DNA of 64,000 bases from Hydrogenimonas sp. (GTDB lineage Bacteria > Campylobacterota > Campylobacteria > Campylobacterales > Hydrogenimonadaceae), in contig AP019005.1 in NCBI GenBank assembly GCA_003945285.1, positions 744,001 through 808,000 of the forward strand, in the 5' to 3' direction. Position 1 is the first letter of the stretch. The number at the start of each line of letters is the position of its first letter. Below the pieces are notes generated by a model. It had not been told where the DNA came from, ran no database searches, and saw only the letters and a program-made list of their open reading frames with translations. The position numbers were made by a program, and so were the translations under genes. This document shows, piece after piece, positions 1,373 to 26,255 of this stretch.

Positions 1373-1996
1373 ATGGGTTCGGAAGGTACAAGGAGAAAGA
1401 TACTCGATGCGGCACTTCATCTTTTCAACGAAGCGGATACGCAGAGGGCATCTACAAACCACATAGCCAGGGCCGCAGGGGTGAGTCCCGGAAACCTCTA
1501 CTACCACTTCAGGAACAGAGAAGAGATAATCAGAGCGCTCTATGCGATGATGACGGAGAAGATCGGCTTCGCCCAAAAACCTCTGCCAGACACGATGTGC
1601 CAACTCAAGCTCTACTGCTCTTTCGTCTCGGACGTCTGGTGGGAGTACCGCTTCTTCCGGCGCGAGCTCATCTTTCTAATGAAGAGAGACCCGGCACTGG
1701 AGCAGGCGGTGGTGAGGGACAACCGGCTGCAGCACTCCAAGTTTCTGGCACTTGTGGAGAAGCTCCGTGACGAAGGGTATATCCTGCTTCCCAACGACGA
1801 CACGATAGAGCTTCTTGCAGATACGGCGATGCTCTACAGCCAGTTTTGGACACCATACCTGATGAGCCTCGGCAACAGTGTGACCGCACCGGCCGTAAGG
1901 ATGGTCTCGGAAAGAATAATGGACCTGTTCGGCCCCTACCTGAGCGAGAAGGCGAAAAGGGAGCTGGCGGATTGCTACACGAAATCTACACAATAG
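1373..1996 (+). CDS. TetR/AcrR-family transcriptional regulator
   Basis: This is a 207-residue protein with an N-terminal TetR helix-turn-helix (about residues 10-55; ASTNHIARAAGVSPGNLYYH followed by FRNREEI), then a ligand-binding helical domain of normal length. ATG 1373 is chosen over the upstream TTG 1367 because AAAAGG lies 6 bp before it. A consensus promoter and a 16-bp palindrome directly upstream suggest autoregulation. The following genes, a CMD-family protein and a cytochrome c, run in the same direction with short gaps and are likely part of its regulon. The ligand is unknown; a redox or xenobiotic signal is only a guess. Confidence 0.9.
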   Translation: MGSEGTRRKILDAALHLFNEADTQRASTNHIARAAGVSPGNLYYHFRNREEIIRALYAMMTEKIGFAQKPLPDTMCQLKLYCSFVSDVWWEYRFFRRELIFLMKRDPALEQAVVRDNRLQHSKFLALVEKLRDEGYILLPNDDTIELLADTAMLYSQFWTPYLMSLGNSVTAPAVRMVSERIMDLFGPYLSEKAKRELADCYTKSTQ

Positions 1997-2024
1997 ATCG
2001 TTAACATTACACCAAGGAGTTGAA

Positions 2025-2561
2025 ATGGCCTATATAAAGCTGCCCGAATTCGAAGAGATGGACCCCGAAATTCAGGAGCGGGCGCGTCCGATTATGGAGA
2101 AGACCGGAAAACTGGGAGATATCTTCAAGCTGCTTGCGGTCAGAAAAGATATCTACTTCGCTACGGATGCGATGGTGCAGAGCTATCTGCTGGCGGAGAC
2201 CGAGCTCCCCTACAGGGTGAAGGAGTCCATAGCGCTGCTGGTGTCGAAGGAGAACGGCTGCAGCATGTGTGTGGATGTCCACAAGAGTATCGCCAAAATG
2301 CTCGGCATGAGCGAAGATGAGGTGGAGAGGGTGCTTCAGGGCATAGATGCCATGGAGGTCGATGAGAGGGAGAAGGAGCTGTTGAGGTTCTCTCTGCGGG
2401 CAAGCAGAAAAGATAACTACAAGATGGGAAGAGAGGATATAGATGCGCTGAAAGAGCTCGGGTACAGCGACTCGCAGATTGTGGAAGCGGTAGCTATAAC
2501 CGGGTACTTCAACTATATCAACACTCTTTCAAACGTATTCGGCCTGGGCCGGGAGGATTAG
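2025..2561 (+). CDS. Carboxymuconolactone decarboxylase (AhpD-like) family protein
   Basis: This 178-residue protein has the CMD/AhpD signature ENGCSMCVDVHKS, that is CxxC followed by a histidine. In AhpD-type members this forms a thiol redox centre acting on peroxides or alkylhydroperoxide reductase partners. The fold is all-helical. It begins 28 bp after the TetR gene with AAGGAG upstream of the ATG and is followed 4 bp later by a cytochrome c gene, so the three are probably one operon. The TetR neighbour suggests induced expression. The exact substrate cannot be told. Confidence 0.85.
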   Translation: MAYIKLPEFEEMDPEIQERARPIMEKTGKLGDIFKLLAVRKDIYFATDAMVQSYLLAETELPYRVKESIALLVSKENGCSMCVDVHKSIAKMLGMSEDEVERVLQGIDAMEVDEREKELLRFSLRASRKDNYKMGREDIDALKELGYSDSQIVEAVAITGYFNYINTLSNVFGLGRED

Positions 2562-2565
2562 TATT

Positions 2566-2904
2566 ATGAAAAAGATTCTGATGTCGATTATAGTGTTGAC
2601 GGCGGGAGCAGTAGCGCTGGAGGCCTACTCCGCAAAAGGGATGGTCTCCTACAAGAAGCTCTGCAAGCAGTGCCACGGATCGGGTTTCAAAGGTGCCGCC
2701 ATGCTGACGAGCGATGAGTGGGAAGAGATGTTCGAAGATAGGGCTAAAAGGCTGAAAGAGGTTCATAAAGATGATCCTGATGCCGGGAAAGTAATGAAGT
2801 CGCCATATTTCAAGCGCCGCATGGAGGCTCTTGGAAGATTTCTGCGAAACAATGGCAGCGACATGGGTGTTGTCCGAAGCTGCGACGGTCTCAACTGCGG
2901 GTAG
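2566..2904 (+). CDS. Small periplasmic cytochrome c family protein
   Basis: This 112-residue protein has an N-terminal signal peptide (residues 1 to about 20) and one haem c-binding motif, CKQCH, at about residues 36-40. The C-terminal half is charged and holds a second cysteine pair (CDGLNC) at the very end. A single haem suggests electron transfer in the periplasm. It is the last gene of the TetR-led cluster. The methionines in the helices after the haem motif could supply the axial ligand, but I cannot decide which one. Confidence 0.75.
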   Translation: MKKILMSIIVLTAGAVALEAYSAKGMVSYKKLCKQCHGSGFKGAAMLTSDEWEEMFEDRAKRLKEVHKDDPDAGKVMKSPYFKRRMEALGRFLRNNGSDMGVVRSCDGLNCG

Positions 2905-3011
2905 TCTTCGGATATAGCTGATGTTACACCGTTTGCACAACATCAATGATATAATTTAATGGGTTTTTTGTGGTGTCCGAAAATAATGAAAATTTCATAA
3001 AAGGTAAAAGT

Positions 3012-4805
3012 GTGGGAAGAGTTTCGAAAACCGTTTTGATATTGCTTCTGAATATATCTCTGTTTGCCGGCCTGCTGAGTGTGGATGAGGCGTTCAAACC
3101 GTCCGCCGAGTTCAGGAACGGCAAAGTTCATCTCGAGATAGGGTTGGCAGAGCATATTCACCTGACAAAAAATCTTTTCAAATTCTCGGTAGAACCAGAG
3201 GGAAAAGTTGAGCTGGGTGAGTACAGGCTTCCGCCGGCGCAGAGGGATGATTTCGGAGATGAGGTCTATGCCGGCAGATTCGAAGCCGATTTTCCGGTAG
3301 AGGTTAAGGACCCGTCCCTCAAGAGCTTCACCTTTGTAGTGACATACCAGGGATGTTCGGATGCCGGTATATGCTATCCGCCCGTGACCAAAAGGTACGA
3401 CTTCGACCTGAAAAGCGCCGCGGCCACAACTGAACCCCCGTCTGCGGAGGTGTCGGAAAAGAGTCTTGCAGCACCGGCTTCACAGAGTGGAGGAGAGGGT
3501 ACGCTTTCCGAGGAGGAGAGTATAGCTTCGACACTCAAGTCCAAAAGCTTTTCGATTGTGCTTCTGACCTTTTTCGGTTTCGGACTGCTTTTAGCCCTCA
3601 CTCCGTGCGTCTTTCCGATGATACCGATTCTCTCCTCCATCATTGTCGCGCAGGGCGAAGGGATGAACGCCAGAAGAGGTTTCGTACTCTCCTTGGTCTA
3701 TGTACTTTCGATGGCACTTACATATACCGTAGCCGGTGTGCTTGCGGGCCTTTTCGGCGCCAATATACAGGCGGCTCTGCAGAATCCGTGGGTCATATCT
3801 CTCTTCGCGCTTCTTTTCGTGGCTTTGGCATTTTCGATGTTCGGTTTTTACGAACTTCAGCTGCCGGCATCTTTGCAGACCAGGATCAGCCGTACGAGTG
3901 ACGAAGCGGGAAAAAAGGGTGGATTGGCGGGAGTCGCGGTTATGGGATTTCTCTCTGCGCTCATCGTCGGACCTTGTGTCGCTCCGCCGCTTGCGGGTGC
4001 GCTGATCTATATAGGCCAGACCGGTGACGCTCTGCTTGGCGGGGCGGCGCTGTTCGTAATGAGCCTTGGTATGGGGCTGCCGCTGCTTCTCATAGGCACC
4101 GGCGCAGGAAAATTCATGCCGAAACCGGGCGGCTGGATGAGTGCCGTCAGCAGGGTTTTCGGCGTCGTCATGCTCGGTGTCGCGATATGGATGCTCTCAC
4201 GTATCGTTCCCGACTCCGTATCGATGGCCCTTTGGTCGGCTCTCTTCATAATCAGTGCAGTCTATATGGGTGCGCTCGAGCCCCTGGGAGAGAAGAGGGG
4301 CTGGAATGCTCTCTTCAAGGGGATCGGCATCATCTCCCTGGTTTACGGAGTTCTCCTCTTTTTCGGTACCTTTACCGGTGCATCCAACCCGCTCGATCCT
4401 CTCAGGGTATTCAAAGAGCGCACCGCATACGCAACACTCGCTGCCCCGGAGTCTCTGCGCTTCAGCAGGGCGGAGACGCTGGAGGATCTGCAGAAGATTT
4501 TGGAGTCTCAAAAGGGGCCTGTTATGGTGGATTTCAGGGCCGACTGGTGCGTAAGCTGCAAAGAGCTGGAGGAGAATACATTCAAAAACAGTGATGTGAT
4601 AGAGGCTCTGAAAGGGTACACTCTGCTTCAGGTGGATGTCACCGAAAACAGTGCCGAGCAGAAGAGAATCATGAAACATTTCGGAATATTCGGACCCCCG
4701 GCCATCCTCTTTTTCAGAGACGGCAAAGAGCTCAGGGCGAAGAGGATTTCGGGCTACAAGCCGCCTGAGGAGTTTTTGAAAATAGTAGAACTCTTACATA
4801 ACTGA
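3012..4805 (+). CDS. dsbD: Thiol:disulfide interchange protein DsbD
   Basis: DsbD carries electrons from cytoplasmic thioredoxin across the inner membrane to periplasmic disulfide reductases and cytochrome c maturation. All three modules are present: an N-terminal signal and alpha domain with CSDAGIC; a membrane core with paired cysteines in LTPCVFPMIPI and VGPCVAPPLAG; and a C-terminal thioredoxin domain with DWCVSCK. The frame is open from GTG 2970, but GTG 3012 follows AAAAGG and gives a proper signal peptide, so 597 residues are preferred. It probably forms an operon with the thioredoxin-fold gene 38 bp downstream. Confidence 0.92.
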   Translation: MGRVSKTVLILLLNISLFAGLLSVDEAFKPSAEFRNGKVHLEIGLAEHIHLTKNLFKFSVEPEGKVELGEYRLPPAQRDDFGDEVYAGRFEADFPVEVKDPSLKSFTFVVTYQGCSDAGICYPPVTKRYDFDLKSAAATTEPPSAEVSEKSLAAPASQSGGEGTLSEEESIASTLKSKSFSIVLLTFFGFGLLLALTPCVFPMIPILSSIIVAQGEGMNARRGFVLSLVYVLSMALTYTVAGVLAGLFGANIQAALQNPWVISLFALLFVALAFSMFGFYELQLPASLQTRISRTSDEAGKKGGLAGVAVMGFLSALIVGPCVAPPLAGALIYIGQTGDALLGGAALFVMSLGMGLPLLLIGTGAGKFMPKPGGWMSAVSRVFGVVMLGVAIWMLSRIVPDSVSMALWSALFIISAVYMGALEPLGEKRGWNALFKGIGIISLVYGVLLFFGTFTGASNPLDPLRVFKERTAYATLAAPESLRFSRAETLEDLQKILESQKGPVMVDFRADWCVSCKELEENTFKNSDVIEALKGYTLLQVDVTENSAEQKRIMKHFGIFGPPAILFFRDGKELRAKRISGYKPPEEFLKIVELLHN

Positions 4806-22302: not shown

Positions 22303-22477
22303 GTAAGCGAACTTTCTGCAAGCAGTTTTTTGAATACAGACCGTGCAGAGATTTTCGGGTAGTATGGGCTGTTTCATCCGGTCATGAATGTCGGGAGAGA
22401 ATTTTAAACACGGGGTATTGCGAGGTATCAGGAGAAGCAGATTCTATATTGATGCATGGTGACAGAAATAGATGCTC
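22303..22477. other. Intergenic, nothing recognised
   Basis: A weak hairpin (CTGCAAGCAG, then six T) lies near 22318. I see no other structure. Confidence 0.4.
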
Positions 22478-22769
22478 TACTTCAACCCAATATCCAGCCT
22501 CATACCAAGAGCGTCGGCGTATTTCATCAGTGTTGCAAGGTTTGGCATATAGCTGTTATTCAGGCTTTCCAGCCTTGAAATGTTGGATTTGGATGTACCG
22601 ATTTTTTTAGCTATTTCATCTTGCGTCAGCCCTTTGGCTACACGTGCCGCTACAAGTTGCTTTTTGATGGTAAAAAGAGGCTTAAGCGCGTTATACTCTT
22701 TTTTACCTCTTTATTCTGCAGAGCTTTTTTCTTGAACTCTGTAAATGTTGGCCTTTTAGTCGCTTTCAT
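22478..22769 (-). pseudogene. HigA-like XRE-family antitoxin, frameshifted
   Basis: Read from ATG 22769, the frame gives MKATKRPTFTEFKKKAL and then fails. Shifting frame at the T-run 22699-22704 (an A-run on the coding strand) restores a clear helix-turn-helix protein: VAKGLTQDEIAKKIGTSKSN, then RLESLNNSYMPNLATLMKY, ending GMRLDIGLK. One missing base in the homopolymer explains it. The start overlaps the end of the toxin remnant, the usual order for HigBA pairs. Confidence 0.75.
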
Positions 22770-23086
22770 CGTCTAACTCCTTTTTACGCTTTAGAGCAAT
22801 TTCCAGATCTCTTTTGGGAGTTTTTTGAGTTTTCTTGACAAAAATGTGCAATATTATGATTTTATCCCTTTTTAATAACAAAAGATGCTTCTGCCTATGC
22901 CTTCGTGCGCTTTTGCTCTCACCTCAAACAAACCATCTTTGAGTGGCTTGGTGTAAGGCTCTCCAAGCTGCGCCCCGGCCATCTCTATGAGTTCAAAGAT
23001 ATGCAGCATCTTAGCTAAAATCTTTGGAGGGAGTGTAAAAGTTTCAGCCTCTACGCCTCATCAAAAAATTCAATCTTCCAATTCAT
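22756..23086 (-). pseudogene. HigB/Gp49-like RelE-superfamily toxin, two frameshifts
   Basis: ATG 23086 opens with MNWKIEFFDEA and hits a stop. Two single-base corrections, near 23053 (a missing G) and near 22875-22880 (a short A/T run), yield one continuous protein: LPPKILAKMLHIFELIEMAG, then LGEPYTKPLKDGLFEVRAKA and an ILHIFVKKTQKTPK tail. That is the Gp49/HigB toxin pattern. It precedes and overlaps the antitoxin remnant. Decay is the simplest reading; homopolymer sequencing error is possible. Confidence 0.75.
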
Positions 23087-23156
23087 GAGCTATGTTGTCA
23101 TAATTGATAACCTATGTCAAGCCTGTCCCGGAATTAATAGGTTATTGCTATCACTC

Positions 23157-23184
23157 GACCCCGAGTGCCCGACCCCGAGTGCCC
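23157..23184. repeat. Tandem 14-mer
   Basis: CGACCCCGAGTGCC occurs twice in direct succession upstream of the toxin remnant. Confidence 0.8.
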
Positions 23185-23315
23185 TTAGATGTTGGGAAAA
23201 TTTAAATTTGGGATAAGAGGACCGCCTCCAACAACTCTTCTTACATTTTACCGGGAGAAATTGAGCTTTATTCAGGTCAATTTTCGATTACAATCATTGG
23301 AGTAACTGTGTAGTA

Positions 23316-23684
23316 TTACAACTCTTTCAGTATCTTTTTGATCACCATATGTAAGTCATCCAACTCTTCATCACATACATTATAGATAGCATCGGCATTT
23401 ACATCGAAATAGTGGTGAGAAAGTATATCTCTCATTCCTTTTATCGATTTCCAGTCAATGGTTTCATACTTTGTAAGTAATTTGCCTTCTGTGAGCTTGT
23501 CTATCTTTTTAAGGCTTTCCCCTATGGCTATAAAAAGCATACACAAACTGTCCAGTTTCTCTTGGCCTTCAGGCGTATCAAGGAAATAGTCGACACTTGT
23601 AACCGGCTCAAATCGAAATTTTATAGTGCTGATTGCATTGTCTATTTGAGACAATATCTCTTTCACTAACTGATTGTCAGGCAC
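23316..23684 (-). CDS. HepT-like HEPN ribonuclease toxin
   Basis: This 122-residue all-helical HEPN protein carries RDILSHHY near residue 85, which fits the RX4HXY active-site motif of HepT exactly. In studied HepT/MntA pairs the toxin cuts RNA and is silenced when the partner attaches AMP to the tyrosine of that motif. The upstream nucleotidyltransferase gene overlaps it by 8 bp. The pair lies in the AT-richer accessory island and appears intact. Confidence 0.85.
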   Translation of the reverse strand: MPDNQLVKEILSQIDNAISTIKFRFEPVTSVDYFLDTPEGQEKLDSLCMLFIAIGESLKKIDKLTEGKLLTKYETIDWKSIKGMRDILSHHYFDVNADAIYNVCDEELDDLHMVIKKILKEL

Positions 23685-23970
23685 TTATAGCCTCTTGCTC
23701 TATATGTTTTTTGAGAGATTGGTTCATCCTCTCACGCAACTGTACCAAATCAGTATGGATGCCGAGTAACTCCTCAAGCTCTATACGAATACGTGAAAGC
23801 AAAAAGAGATTGGAGTGTCTGAGTTTTAAAAATATATCAACATCACTATCCTCTTTCGCATCTCCTCTGGCGTATGAACCGAATATTCCTATCTCTTCAA
23901 TTCCGTATCTATTGCCGTACTCCTCTTTGTATGCTCTAAGAGTCGACAATATCTGGTTTTTATCCGGCAT
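23677..23970 (-). CDS. MntA-like minimal nucleotidyltransferase antitoxin
   Basis: This 97-residue protein has the polymerase-beta nucleotidyltransferase signature GSYARGDAKEDSDVDIFL, i.e. GSX10DXD, with both catalytic aspartates present. It precedes HepT and overlaps it by 8 bp, the normal order. GGAG lies before the ATG. It would AMPylate and neutralise HepT. Confidence 0.87.
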   Translation of the reverse strand: MPDKNQILSTLRAYKEEYGNRYGIEEIGIFGSYARGDAKEDSDVDIFLKLRHSNLFLLSRIRIELEELLGIHTDLVQLRERMNQSLKKHIEQEAISA

Positions 23971-24023
23971 GAGCCAACTCCTAATATTTTTAACTGATAT
24001 TACGCAGTATAGATCAGTTATTT

Positions 24024-24139
24024 ACTTTACGCAAAATCCGCACGCAGAGCGGGACTCTGCAAAATAGCGGAAAAACTGTTGACATCTTAGCCGCCCTGAC
24101 GGGCAAGTGCGGATTTTTACCCGTTTTTTTCCGCTCGAA
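24024..24139. repeat. Intergenic element B, copy 4 (right end lost)
   Basis: The copy begins ACTTTACGCAAAATCCGCAC and contains GCCCTGACGGGCAAGTGCGG and TTTTTCCGCTCGAATC, but lacks the closing inverted repeat. Confidence 0.7.
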
Positions 24140-24240
24140 TCATGGAAAGGATAAATCCTGTGTCAGGTCTGTTTCAATTATAGCATATAGTATTCCTTGC
24201 CTTATGTGATGAAAAGCAAGAGGGCCAGTGATGGCAATTC

Positions 24241-24420
24241 GATCCTATCATCAGGGAGTCGGGCACATCCGTGCGCGGTAAAGCCAGAATATCAAAAGCT
24301 GGTTACTGGATTTATAAATGAACGCTCTACATGCCCCTGATGGTAGCCGTACACCAACAATAGAAGACTCAAAAGCGGCGGCAAGCATACCACCGTTGCA
24401 CAAGTGGCTCTGGTGAGCAA
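24241..24420 (+). mobile_element. Fragment of an IS110-family transposase
   Basis: The plus strand from 24241 encodes DPIIRESGTSVRGKARISKA, the conserved C-terminal region of IS110/IS116/IS902 transposases, followed by GYWIYK, a stop, and TLYMPLMVAV. The frame then breaks again. Only this scrap remains; no ends of an insertion sequence were found. It lies between the HepT/MntA and DarT/NADAR pairs. Confidence 0.7.
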
Positions 24421-24551
24421 AATTTTGATCACTGCCCACTTACTCTACAAAAGTGGGCAGTGATACAGTTATAAAATTTGAGTAAAACCAGTGGAGTTTT
24501 TGTGGGGTTTTATGGGAATGACTAACCTGTACTCCTAAACTTTATGCTTTT
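24421..24551. other. Intergenic, inverted repeat only
   Basis: CACTGCCCACTT at 24434-24445 and AAGTGGGCAGTG at 24451-24462 are perfect inverted arms of a hairpin. It may terminate the NADAR/DarT transcript or be the edge of the old insertion. Confidence 0.5.
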
Positions 24552-25262
24552 TCATCCTAGTTCCATTTTAGACTGGTAATGACTTTGATGATCGGTTGAA
24601 TCTTCATGTTTGTTTATCAACTGTAAAAAGGTATGCTTGTTTTGGAGTGCTTCTTCAATCTGAATTCCACTTCGTCGAATGCCCACATATAATGCGGCAG
24701 ATGCGGCTTGACAGTTGATAGACTTGGCAGGATTGAATTCGATGTCCGTAAAAGCAGTGTATTGCATTATTTGTTCGCGGAGCCTTTCACTGGCGTGTAG
24801 AGCCTTCAGATATAGCCAGTGGTAGAAAGCGGTTTTGGGCTCGAGATCCCACTCTTCTTCATCCCACACGAAACGCTTTAGGGAACCTGACTCTTTCAAG
24901 CGAGGATCTCGTTTTGCATCTTTCGCACTTTTGTTGTATAAATCTTTATAGGGCCCACCTTTTTCAAAAACTTTGCTACCTTGAAAGAAAGATTCGACAC
25001 TTGCACTTAATCCAGAGCTATCTGGGAGTTTCAATTGGAATGCACTCAACATTTTGCCAAGTTCATTTGGTGATTTGCTTGAAATTTCAAGAATCTTTTT
25101 TTTCTCTAAATCGTACTCTTTGGATGCGTTTTTATGCAACGATGCGATGGAACATTGTTTTTGTTTGATGCTGAACCCTGGAAACCATTCAAATTCGACG
25201 GGTAATTCTTCATAGAATTTATCTCGCTTACCTTTTACAACATATACGTATCTTTTTGCCAT
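24552..25262 (-). CDS. DarT1-associated NADAR-type antitoxin
   Basis: This 236-residue protein matches what I know of the NADAR antitoxins next to DarT1: VEFEWFPGFSIKQKQ..SIASLH near the start, ILEISSKSPNELG, VESFFQGSKVFEKGGPYKDL, and FTDIEFNPAKSINCQAASAA near the C-terminus. NADAR proteins of this group are reported to remove ADP-ribose from guanine. It lies 12 bp behind the DarT gene with AAAGGA before its ATG. It has no macrodomain motifs, so it is not a DarG. The family assignment comes from memory of conserved motifs. Confidence 0.78.
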   Translation of the reverse strand: MAKRYVYVVKGKRDKFYEELPVEFEWFPGFSIKQKQCSIASLHKNASKEYDLEKKKILEISSKSPNELGKMLSAFQLKLPDSSGLSASVESFFQGSKVFEKGGPYKDLYNKSAKDAKRDPRLKESGSLKRFVWDEEEWDLEPKTAFYHWLYLKALHASERLREQIMQYTAFTDIEFNPAKSINCQAASAALYVGIRRSGIQIEEALQNKHTFLQLINKHEDSTDHQSHYQSKMELG

Positions 25263-25274
25263 ATATGAATTCCT

Positions 25275-26006
25275 TTAGATGAATGTATCAATATTGAGTA
25301 TCTTAGTTATGGGGATGAAATTTGGCACCAGCACTTCAGCTTGCATTTTTTTCTTTTCTTCTTGCGTTAAAGTTGAAAGTTTTCTATCTTTGGCAAGTAA
25401 ATCCAAATCCAGCAACGGCAGTACTTTCTCTACTTTATCGATTATTGCATAACTGTCAGTTGCATTGATATTTGACAACAACGTACCAGGCCATGCCAAA
25501 ACCTCTAGATCAATTTGTAGCCATACAAAGCGATTACCTTTTTCATACTTGTTTTTCCAATACATTGGTAGGTTCGTTACAAAAGATAAGCTGACATATT
25601 TATCCAACCCCTTGAGTGAATCTAGCTCCCATGAAAGCTCATTCGTTGCATAGATTGGTCTTTTTTGCATCTTGTGGAGATTTTTTTGCGAATACAGTCC
25701 ACCACTTTCTATGATAGAGGCAATATTCGCTTTATTTGTGAAATGATAGAGTTTTTTGATATTGTGATTAGTTAAAATTTGAAACACAGTACTATTATTT
25801 GTTGTACTTAATTTTGAAAATGAAGTTTGTTTCGATACAGAAGAATCAATAGACTCAAGTTTTGTGTCTTTTTTACTTGCAAGTGATTCGTCTTCAAAAT
25901 CTGTTTGTATATGATTGTGCTTATTTCTTTTGGGTTCGTTTTGATTTGAATTGGATGAAATACTCTGCCAAATGTAAATTAGGATTATAATTGCTATAAT
26001 TTCCAT
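25275..26006 (-). CDS. DarT-family (DUF4433) DNA ADP-ribosyltransferase with N-terminal membrane helix
   Basis: This 243-residue protein has two parts. Residues 2-18 (EIIAIIILIYIWQSI) form a membrane helix, followed by about 55 polar, Asn/Ser/Lys-rich residues. From about 80 onward comes the DarT fold: LYHFTNKANIASIIESGGL, KRPIYATNELSWE, VSLSFVTNLPMYW and the C-terminal EVLVPNFIPITKI with the expected catalytic glutamate. DarT enzymes attach ADP-ribose to single-stranded DNA. ATG 26006 follows AAGGAG; an open frame upstream is ignored. The partner behind it is a NADAR-type protein. Confidence 0.82.
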   Translation of the reverse strand: MEIIAIIILIYIWQSISSNSNQNEPKRNKHNHIQTDFEDESLASKKDTKLESIDSSVSKQTSFSKLSTTNNSTVFQILTNHNIKKLYHFTNKANIASIIESGGLYSQKNLHKMQKRPIYATNELSWELDSLKGLDKYVSLSFVTNLPMYWKNKYEKGNRFVWLQIDLEVLAWPGTLLSNINATDSYAIIDKVEKVLPLLDLDLLAKDRKLSTLTQEEKKKMQAEVLVPNFIPITKILNIDTFI

Positions 26007-26255
26007 AGCATCTCCTTCTTTTGTTGCCCTCTTTGAAGCAAGAGGGTTGGTGATAACGATAACCAATGTTTTACTTTAGTGCAACATATTGTAACATCAA
26101 TTAAGAGGTTTAAGCAACATTATTGTTGTCACCTCGAAAGATAAAGAGAAGACAAAGAAGTACAAAGAGTACAAGGAGCCTGGTATTAACAATAACCTAG
26201 CGAAAACCCCGGTATTGGAGGCTGGAACTACTTATTACCGGGTTTGGCGCAAGGT

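Follow-up and report, generated by a model that had tools for sequence, protein, structure and literature searches.

Can a DNA-modifying toxin be held at the cell membrane, and what kind of enzyme would such a toxin be? The question is raised by a gene pair in Hydrogenimonas sp. (assembly GCA_003945285.1, contig AP019005.1, positions 744,001 to 808,000, forward strand); this stretch of 64,000 nt is the window referred to throughout, and coordinates are positions within it. A preliminary description of the pair, made from the sequence alone, had proposed a membrane-anchored DarT with a NADAR-type partner. Our analysis leads us to suggest that the toxin is a membrane-tethered DarT within a DarT-NADAR toxin-antitoxin module, phage defence being its most likely role; we put the probability of this reading at about 60%.

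A DarT-NADAR pair on a low-GC insertion

The two genes share the minus strand in an operon layout, with the NADAR gene starting 12 bp past the toxin gene:

25275..26006, minus strand: darT-like toxin gene, 243 aa (Pfam DarT PF14487; Foldseek)
25278..25805, minus strand: DarT ADP-ribosyltransferase domain, codons 68-243 (AlphaFold2, Foldseek, alignment)
24552..25262, minus strand: NADAR antitoxin gene, 236 aa (PF22397; 8bat)

Residues 87-240 of the toxin match the Pfam DarT family PF14487 in an HMM search (E=8.7e-25; 88.1 bits against a cut-off of 22.5), and PADLOC also calls the protein DarT. In the AlphaFold2 model, residues 68-243 form a confident DarT domain, and the significant PDB matches of the model in Foldseek are all DarTs (7omy, 9.7e-9; 8baq, 7.9e-8; probability 1.00). 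The DUF4433 motifs recognized initially are thus confirmed as those of a DarT. The toxin scores under the curated NCBIfam cut-off for DarT, as does a viral-contig protein that matches the DarT1 of E. coli C7 with E=5e-114.

The partner matches the Pfam NADAR-DarT1 family PF22397 over residues 2-215 (E=4.4e-83), and its sole relative in the PDB is the Geobacter lovleyi NADAR 8bat (E=3.7e-57, about half identical). Four residues have been shown to matter in the C7 NADAR, namely E88, K95, K115 and D171 (PMC11543638); their counterparts in the partner, E90, K97, K117 and D173, are invariant in the NADAR alignment. Pfam returned only NADAR-type matches for the partner and no macrodomain, so that the pair lacks the DarG of DarTG2 systems. 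These profile and residue matches assign the partner unambiguously to the DarT1-associated NADARs; its earlier designation as NADAR-type rather than DarG holds, and the converse possibility, a protein unrelated to NADAR, is ruled out by the strength of the PF22397 match.

The pair sits on an insertion that it shares with a second toxin-antitoxin-like pair, of MntA/HepT type (23316..23970, minus strand):

22303..26255, no strand: low-GC insertion of ~3.9 kb, flanked by trmA-like and DUF2780 genes (GC profile)
23677-23970, minus strand: MntA-like nucleotidyltransferase gene (PF01909, 3.5e-14)
23316-23684, minus strand: HepT-like RNase gene (PF01934, 3.9e-16)

The GC content of the insertion is 39%, compared with about 50-55% in its surroundings. 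In seven genomes of the same genus the trmA-like and DUF2780 flanks are separated by only about 20-240 bp, and direct alignment with two of the seven makes the empty site visible. Because of the low GC content and the adjacent flanks, the DarT-NADAR module was most likely acquired horizontally. Scans of the sequence for promoters and terminators gave no excess above shuffled sequence. PADLOC labels the MntA-like nucleotidyltransferase PDC-S09.

The toxin begins with a hydrophobic helix

Upstream of the DarT domain, the toxin carries an N-terminal extension with the following elements:

25953..26003, minus strand: N-terminal hydrophobic helix, codons 2-18, predicted membrane anchor (hydrophobicity, AlphaFold2)
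25806..25952, minus strand: polar linker, codons 19-67, rich in S, N, K, E and T, predicted to be disordered (pLDDT)
26012..26017, minus strand: ribosome-binding site AAGGAG, 5 nt upstream of the toxin ATG

The hydrophobic stretch, MEIIAIIILIYIWQSIS, reaches a Kyte-Doolittle mean of 2.29 over 15 residues, and AlphaFold2 models residues 2-18 as helical with a pLDDT of about 80, in agreement with the helix first noticed at this end of the protein. Most of the segment that follows is predicted to be disordered (block mean pLDDT 47-55); it is indeed a polar linker, with a length of about 49 residues (19-67) instead of the 55 originally given. On a crude membrane-insertion score, the toxin segment ranks fifth among the 142 ORFs of at least 100 aa in the window. 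An acidic residue precedes the helix, which has no basic n-region (M-E-I-I), while K26, R27 and K29 lie behind it; by the positive-inside rule, this pattern fits an orientation with the N-terminus out and the C-terminus in, which would place the DarT domain in the cytoplasm. The layout of an N-terminal transmembrane segment followed by a cytoplasmic, DNA-acting domain is accordingly a prediction from hydrophobicity, AlphaFold2 and charge pattern only.

AAGGAG lies five bases ahead of the toxin ATG (26006), and no comparable site precedes either the upstream TTG (26066) or the internal GTG (codon 74). A mis-set start codon can therefore be ruled out, and the helix is not an artefact of the start call. 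The preliminary description had foreseen a mis-set start and absence of the helix from close homologues as one joint objection; the start is genuine, and the helix is missing from the closest homologue (L004, same genus, 47% identical). A lineage-wide trait is likewise ruled out, since the helix is also missing from the other Campylobacterota homologues that were retrieved.

The absence of the helix from this relative is one of the points in favour of an ordinary soluble DarT-NADAR module, in which the helix would be incidental (a chance product of AT-rich sequence, or an element for packing or NADAR binding) and would not insert into a membrane. Another is its chance level: equal hydrophobicity in the first 25 residues was reached by 53 of 20,000 shuffles of the toxin protein (0.3%), but by 460 of 20,000 (2.3%) random stop-free 25-mers with the composition of the AT-rich island, and the hydrophobic core is short, at about 11-13 residues. 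Because 2.3% of such random 25-mers are equally hydrophobic, the helix taken alone is modestly significant and at most suggestive. Against an incidental helix stand the good ribosome-binding site at a start that takes the helix in, and the charge asymmetry, which is that of typical membrane anchors.

Predicted anchors recur among NADAR-linked DarTs

Homologues bear on the same alternative. DarTs were sampled from Campylobacterota genomes, GTDB contigs, viral contigs and plasmids; the scan of GTDB contigs used a two-sequence DarT alignment and gave ten matches, nearly all of them Bacteroidota relatives. The counted set comprises 41 non-redundant DarTs that adjoin a NADAR gene, with proteins running off contig ends left out. 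In this convenience sample, 36 of the 41 have no anchor, as a soluble module would have it; the remaining five, four besides the window toxin, carry transmembrane-type segments at the extreme N-terminus, which argues for an anchor. On balance, we consider the soluble module with an incidental helix unlikely.

The four other anchored toxins are L064, from a Vibrio parahaemolyticus plasmid, with one N-terminal segment followed by a linker of VEP repeats; L072, from a Rhizobium leguminosarum plasmid, with about three such segments; and L042 and L107, both from viral contigs. Among the NADAR-linked DarTs whose N-terminal extension is at least 70 aa long, five of seven have an anchor. The anchor sequences of L042 and L072 are alike, no other pair is, and that of the window toxin resembles none of the four. 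On a maximum-likelihood tree the anchor trait needs at least three changes, forced by well-supported branches, with gains and losses indistinguishable. By sequence prediction, anchoring thus recurs among NADAR-linked DarTs (5/41, convenience sample), with segments unlike that of the window toxin in sequence. One may go further and speculate, tentatively and with the odds against it, that DarTs of separate lineages acquired unrelated membrane anchors by fusion and that tethering is a recurrent, selected feature in a subset of DarT-NADAR systems. Such toxins would mark phage DNA where it is injected, as a counterpart of the nuclease SNIPE that works by chemical modification.

Searches of the phage collection with the window toxin, the window NADAR and the Vibrio toxin gave no match, and neither did a scan of viral contigs with the window toxin as the lone query. 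On the viral contig L107, a tandem of a predicted membrane-anchored DarT, a NADAR and a second DarT occupies positions 1576-3800. Membrane anchoring of DarT is not mentioned in the main DarT1-NADAR paper, nor are transmembrane forms in a DarT review; in the literature searched, mostly open, with few subscription papers or preprints, N-terminal anchors on NADAR-linked DarTs are provisionally unreported.

A second clade with a different catalytic loop

A maximum-likelihood DarT tree with DarT2-like outgroups contains two supported clades: A (35 rows, including the C7 DarT1; support 99/96) and B (27 rows, including the window toxin; 97/89), and NADAR-linked members are numerous in both. R52 and D54 are essential in the E. 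coli C7 DarT1; within clade A, R52 is found in 34/35 and D54 in 35/35. The window toxin has S130 and K132 in these columns, where loop lengths differ and the stand-in for R52 is ambiguous. Clade B has a motif of its own in place of the dyad, S-[RHK]-x-x-D, with S125 in 27/27, a basic residue at 126 in 24/27 and D129 in 27/27. In the window toxin it reads S-W-x-x-D (W126, D129), and the tryptophan (codon TGG, 25629-25631) occurs in no other member.

The remaining active-site positions are conserved: H88 corresponds to the NAD-binding H17 of C7, E224 to the ART glutamate E152, and M148, N181 and Q222 to M71, the guanine-contacting N104, and Q150. Because it falls outside the C7 clade and has no R52/D54 dyad, we do not file the toxin as a C7-type DarT1; by its placement in the alignment and tree it is a NADAR-linked DarT of the second clade. 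Our search of papers found no experimental data on clade B NADAR-linked DarTs. Guanine is the likely target base, judged solely by the guanine-specific family to which the NADAR partner belongs. Of the guanine-directed DarT1/NADAR pair put forward at the outset, the NADAR part stands, whereas the DarT1 label is weakened by the separate clade and the missing dyad, and guanine is weakened to an assignment by way of the partner.

The toxin's activity is not assured, because R52/D54 are missing and Trp126 is unique in clade B. It might be a degenerate or repurposed enzyme, inactive or with another target, and the pair a mere passenger of the island. In addition to the tryptophan, at a position where 24 of the 27 clade B members have R, H or K, the absence of the whole insertion from the seven same-genus genomes with adjacent flanks would agree with this. 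The toxin ORF is intact, however, as is the NADAR with all its key residues; H88, M148, N181, Q222 and E224 are retained, and clade B as a whole, much of which has NADAR partners, typically lacks the dyad. We regard degeneration as quite improbable.

A working model for a tethered DarT

Returning to the membrane-tethered DarT, the model that we infer, from membrane insertion and topology to enzymatic activity, target base and defence role, is the following. The toxin would be a bitopic inner-membrane protein with its N-terminus outside and one short transmembrane helix, so that the flexible polar linker and the DarT ADP-ribosyltransferase domain face the cytoplasm. With NAD+ from the cytoplasm, the toxin would ADP-ribosylate bases of single-stranded DNA, guanine most likely, while the cytoplasmic NADAR would remove ADP-ribose from the DNA and so let the cell survive. 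Tethering would restrict the toxin's access to the chromosome and station the enzyme at the point of the membrane through which foreign DNA passes; phage defence would be the most likely role. That the N-terminus is instead a Sec signal peptide, which exports the DarT domain as an effector with the NADAR as immunity protein, is hardly credible: the hydrophobic stretch is followed by a small-residue region (QSISSNS), but a basic n-region is lacking and the basic residues come after the helix, both NAD+ and DNA reside in the cytoplasm, and we noticed no genes for secretion on the island.

Some DarT-family enzymes may thus act at the cell membrane, the site of phage DNA entry. With several natural tethered variants at hand, the role of the tether is directly testable through removal of the helix. 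Another question, posed by the second NADAR-linked clade and its divergent catalytic loop, is whether guanine is the base modified by every NADAR-linked DarT.

Related DarT loci

Several relatives have unusual surroundings or domains. In the same-genus genome G002, the protein most closely related to the window toxin sits in a DarT-NADAR-PP2C-kinase cluster (L124:5882-9358), which connects NADAR systems to the arrangement of Bacteroidota DarTs. The latter, members of clade B (L014:30-6267, L011-L020), are extended at the C-terminus, and by eye the added region shows a von Willebrand A-like DxSxS motif, which has no Pfam match. At L014, the neighbours of the DarT are genes for a DUF6939 protein, a kinase and a PP2C phosphatase-like protein (no Pfam match for the last), apparently an undescribed phospho-signalling DarT locus. 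DUF6939 proteins occupy the NADAR position beside clade B DarTs (L006:3675-4340, L010, L014:3380-3997), and show a weak match to the NADAR-DarT1 profile (9.9e-6 for the one at L006); the DUF6939 family probably consists of NADAR-like antitoxins. The DarTs at L006:2383-3642 and L010 carry charged, coiled-coil-like N-terminal extensions of about 240 residues. In a Campylobacterota genome, a DarT2-like domain is fused to DUF285/PARCEL repeats of surface-lipoprotein type (L035:790-2076).

Comparison with known systems

The window pair is close in design to DarT1-NADAR (DarTG1; E. coli C7, Geobacter lovleyi; PMC11543638): both have darT and nadar in one operon and the DarT fold, their antitoxins belong to one Pfam family and carry its E, K, K, D set, and the ART glutamate, the His that binds NAD and the Asn that contacts the base are conserved. 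It differs in that the toxin belongs to a separate clade without R52/D54 and adds an N-terminal helix and linker. With DarT2-DarG (DarTG2) it shares the DarT fold, 7omy being the best structural match by E-value, but the window pair has no macrodomain antitoxin, and Ser141, not Tyr, occupies the [H-Y-E] position. The Bacteroidota DarT-DUF6939 loci (L014 and relatives) likewise contain a clade B DarT, and the DUF6939 and NADAR-DarT1 profiles weakly cross-match; these loci differ in having no membrane anchor, a C-terminal von Willebrand A-like extension, and PP2C-like and kinase genes alongside.

For the tether itself, the nearest parallel is SNIPE, a membrane-bound anti-phage nuclease (GIY-YIG plus DUF4041) with a single N-out transmembrane segment and a cytoplasmic DNA-acting domain, whose anchor prevents cleavage of host DNA while phage DNA is cut during injection (PMC13190303). 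It is a published precedent for the logic of the proposal, made at the outset, that the tether could place the toxin at the site of phage entry. SNIPE homologues have one transmembrane segment in 59% of cases and two in 7%, within diverse N-terminal regions whose segments span 10-20 residues (PMC13190303). The window toxin is predicted to share the single N-terminal transmembrane segment, the cytoplasmic DNA-acting domain and the variable N-terminal region. Its catalytic domain is unrelated, that of an ADP-ribosyltransferase with a hydrolase antitoxin as opposed to a nuclease with demonstrated function, and we see in the variable DarT anchors a resemblance to SNIPE in logic, not homology. If the model is correct, a membrane tether would be a spatial answer, as in SNIPE, to how DarT toxins reach phage DNA and yet spare the chromosome.
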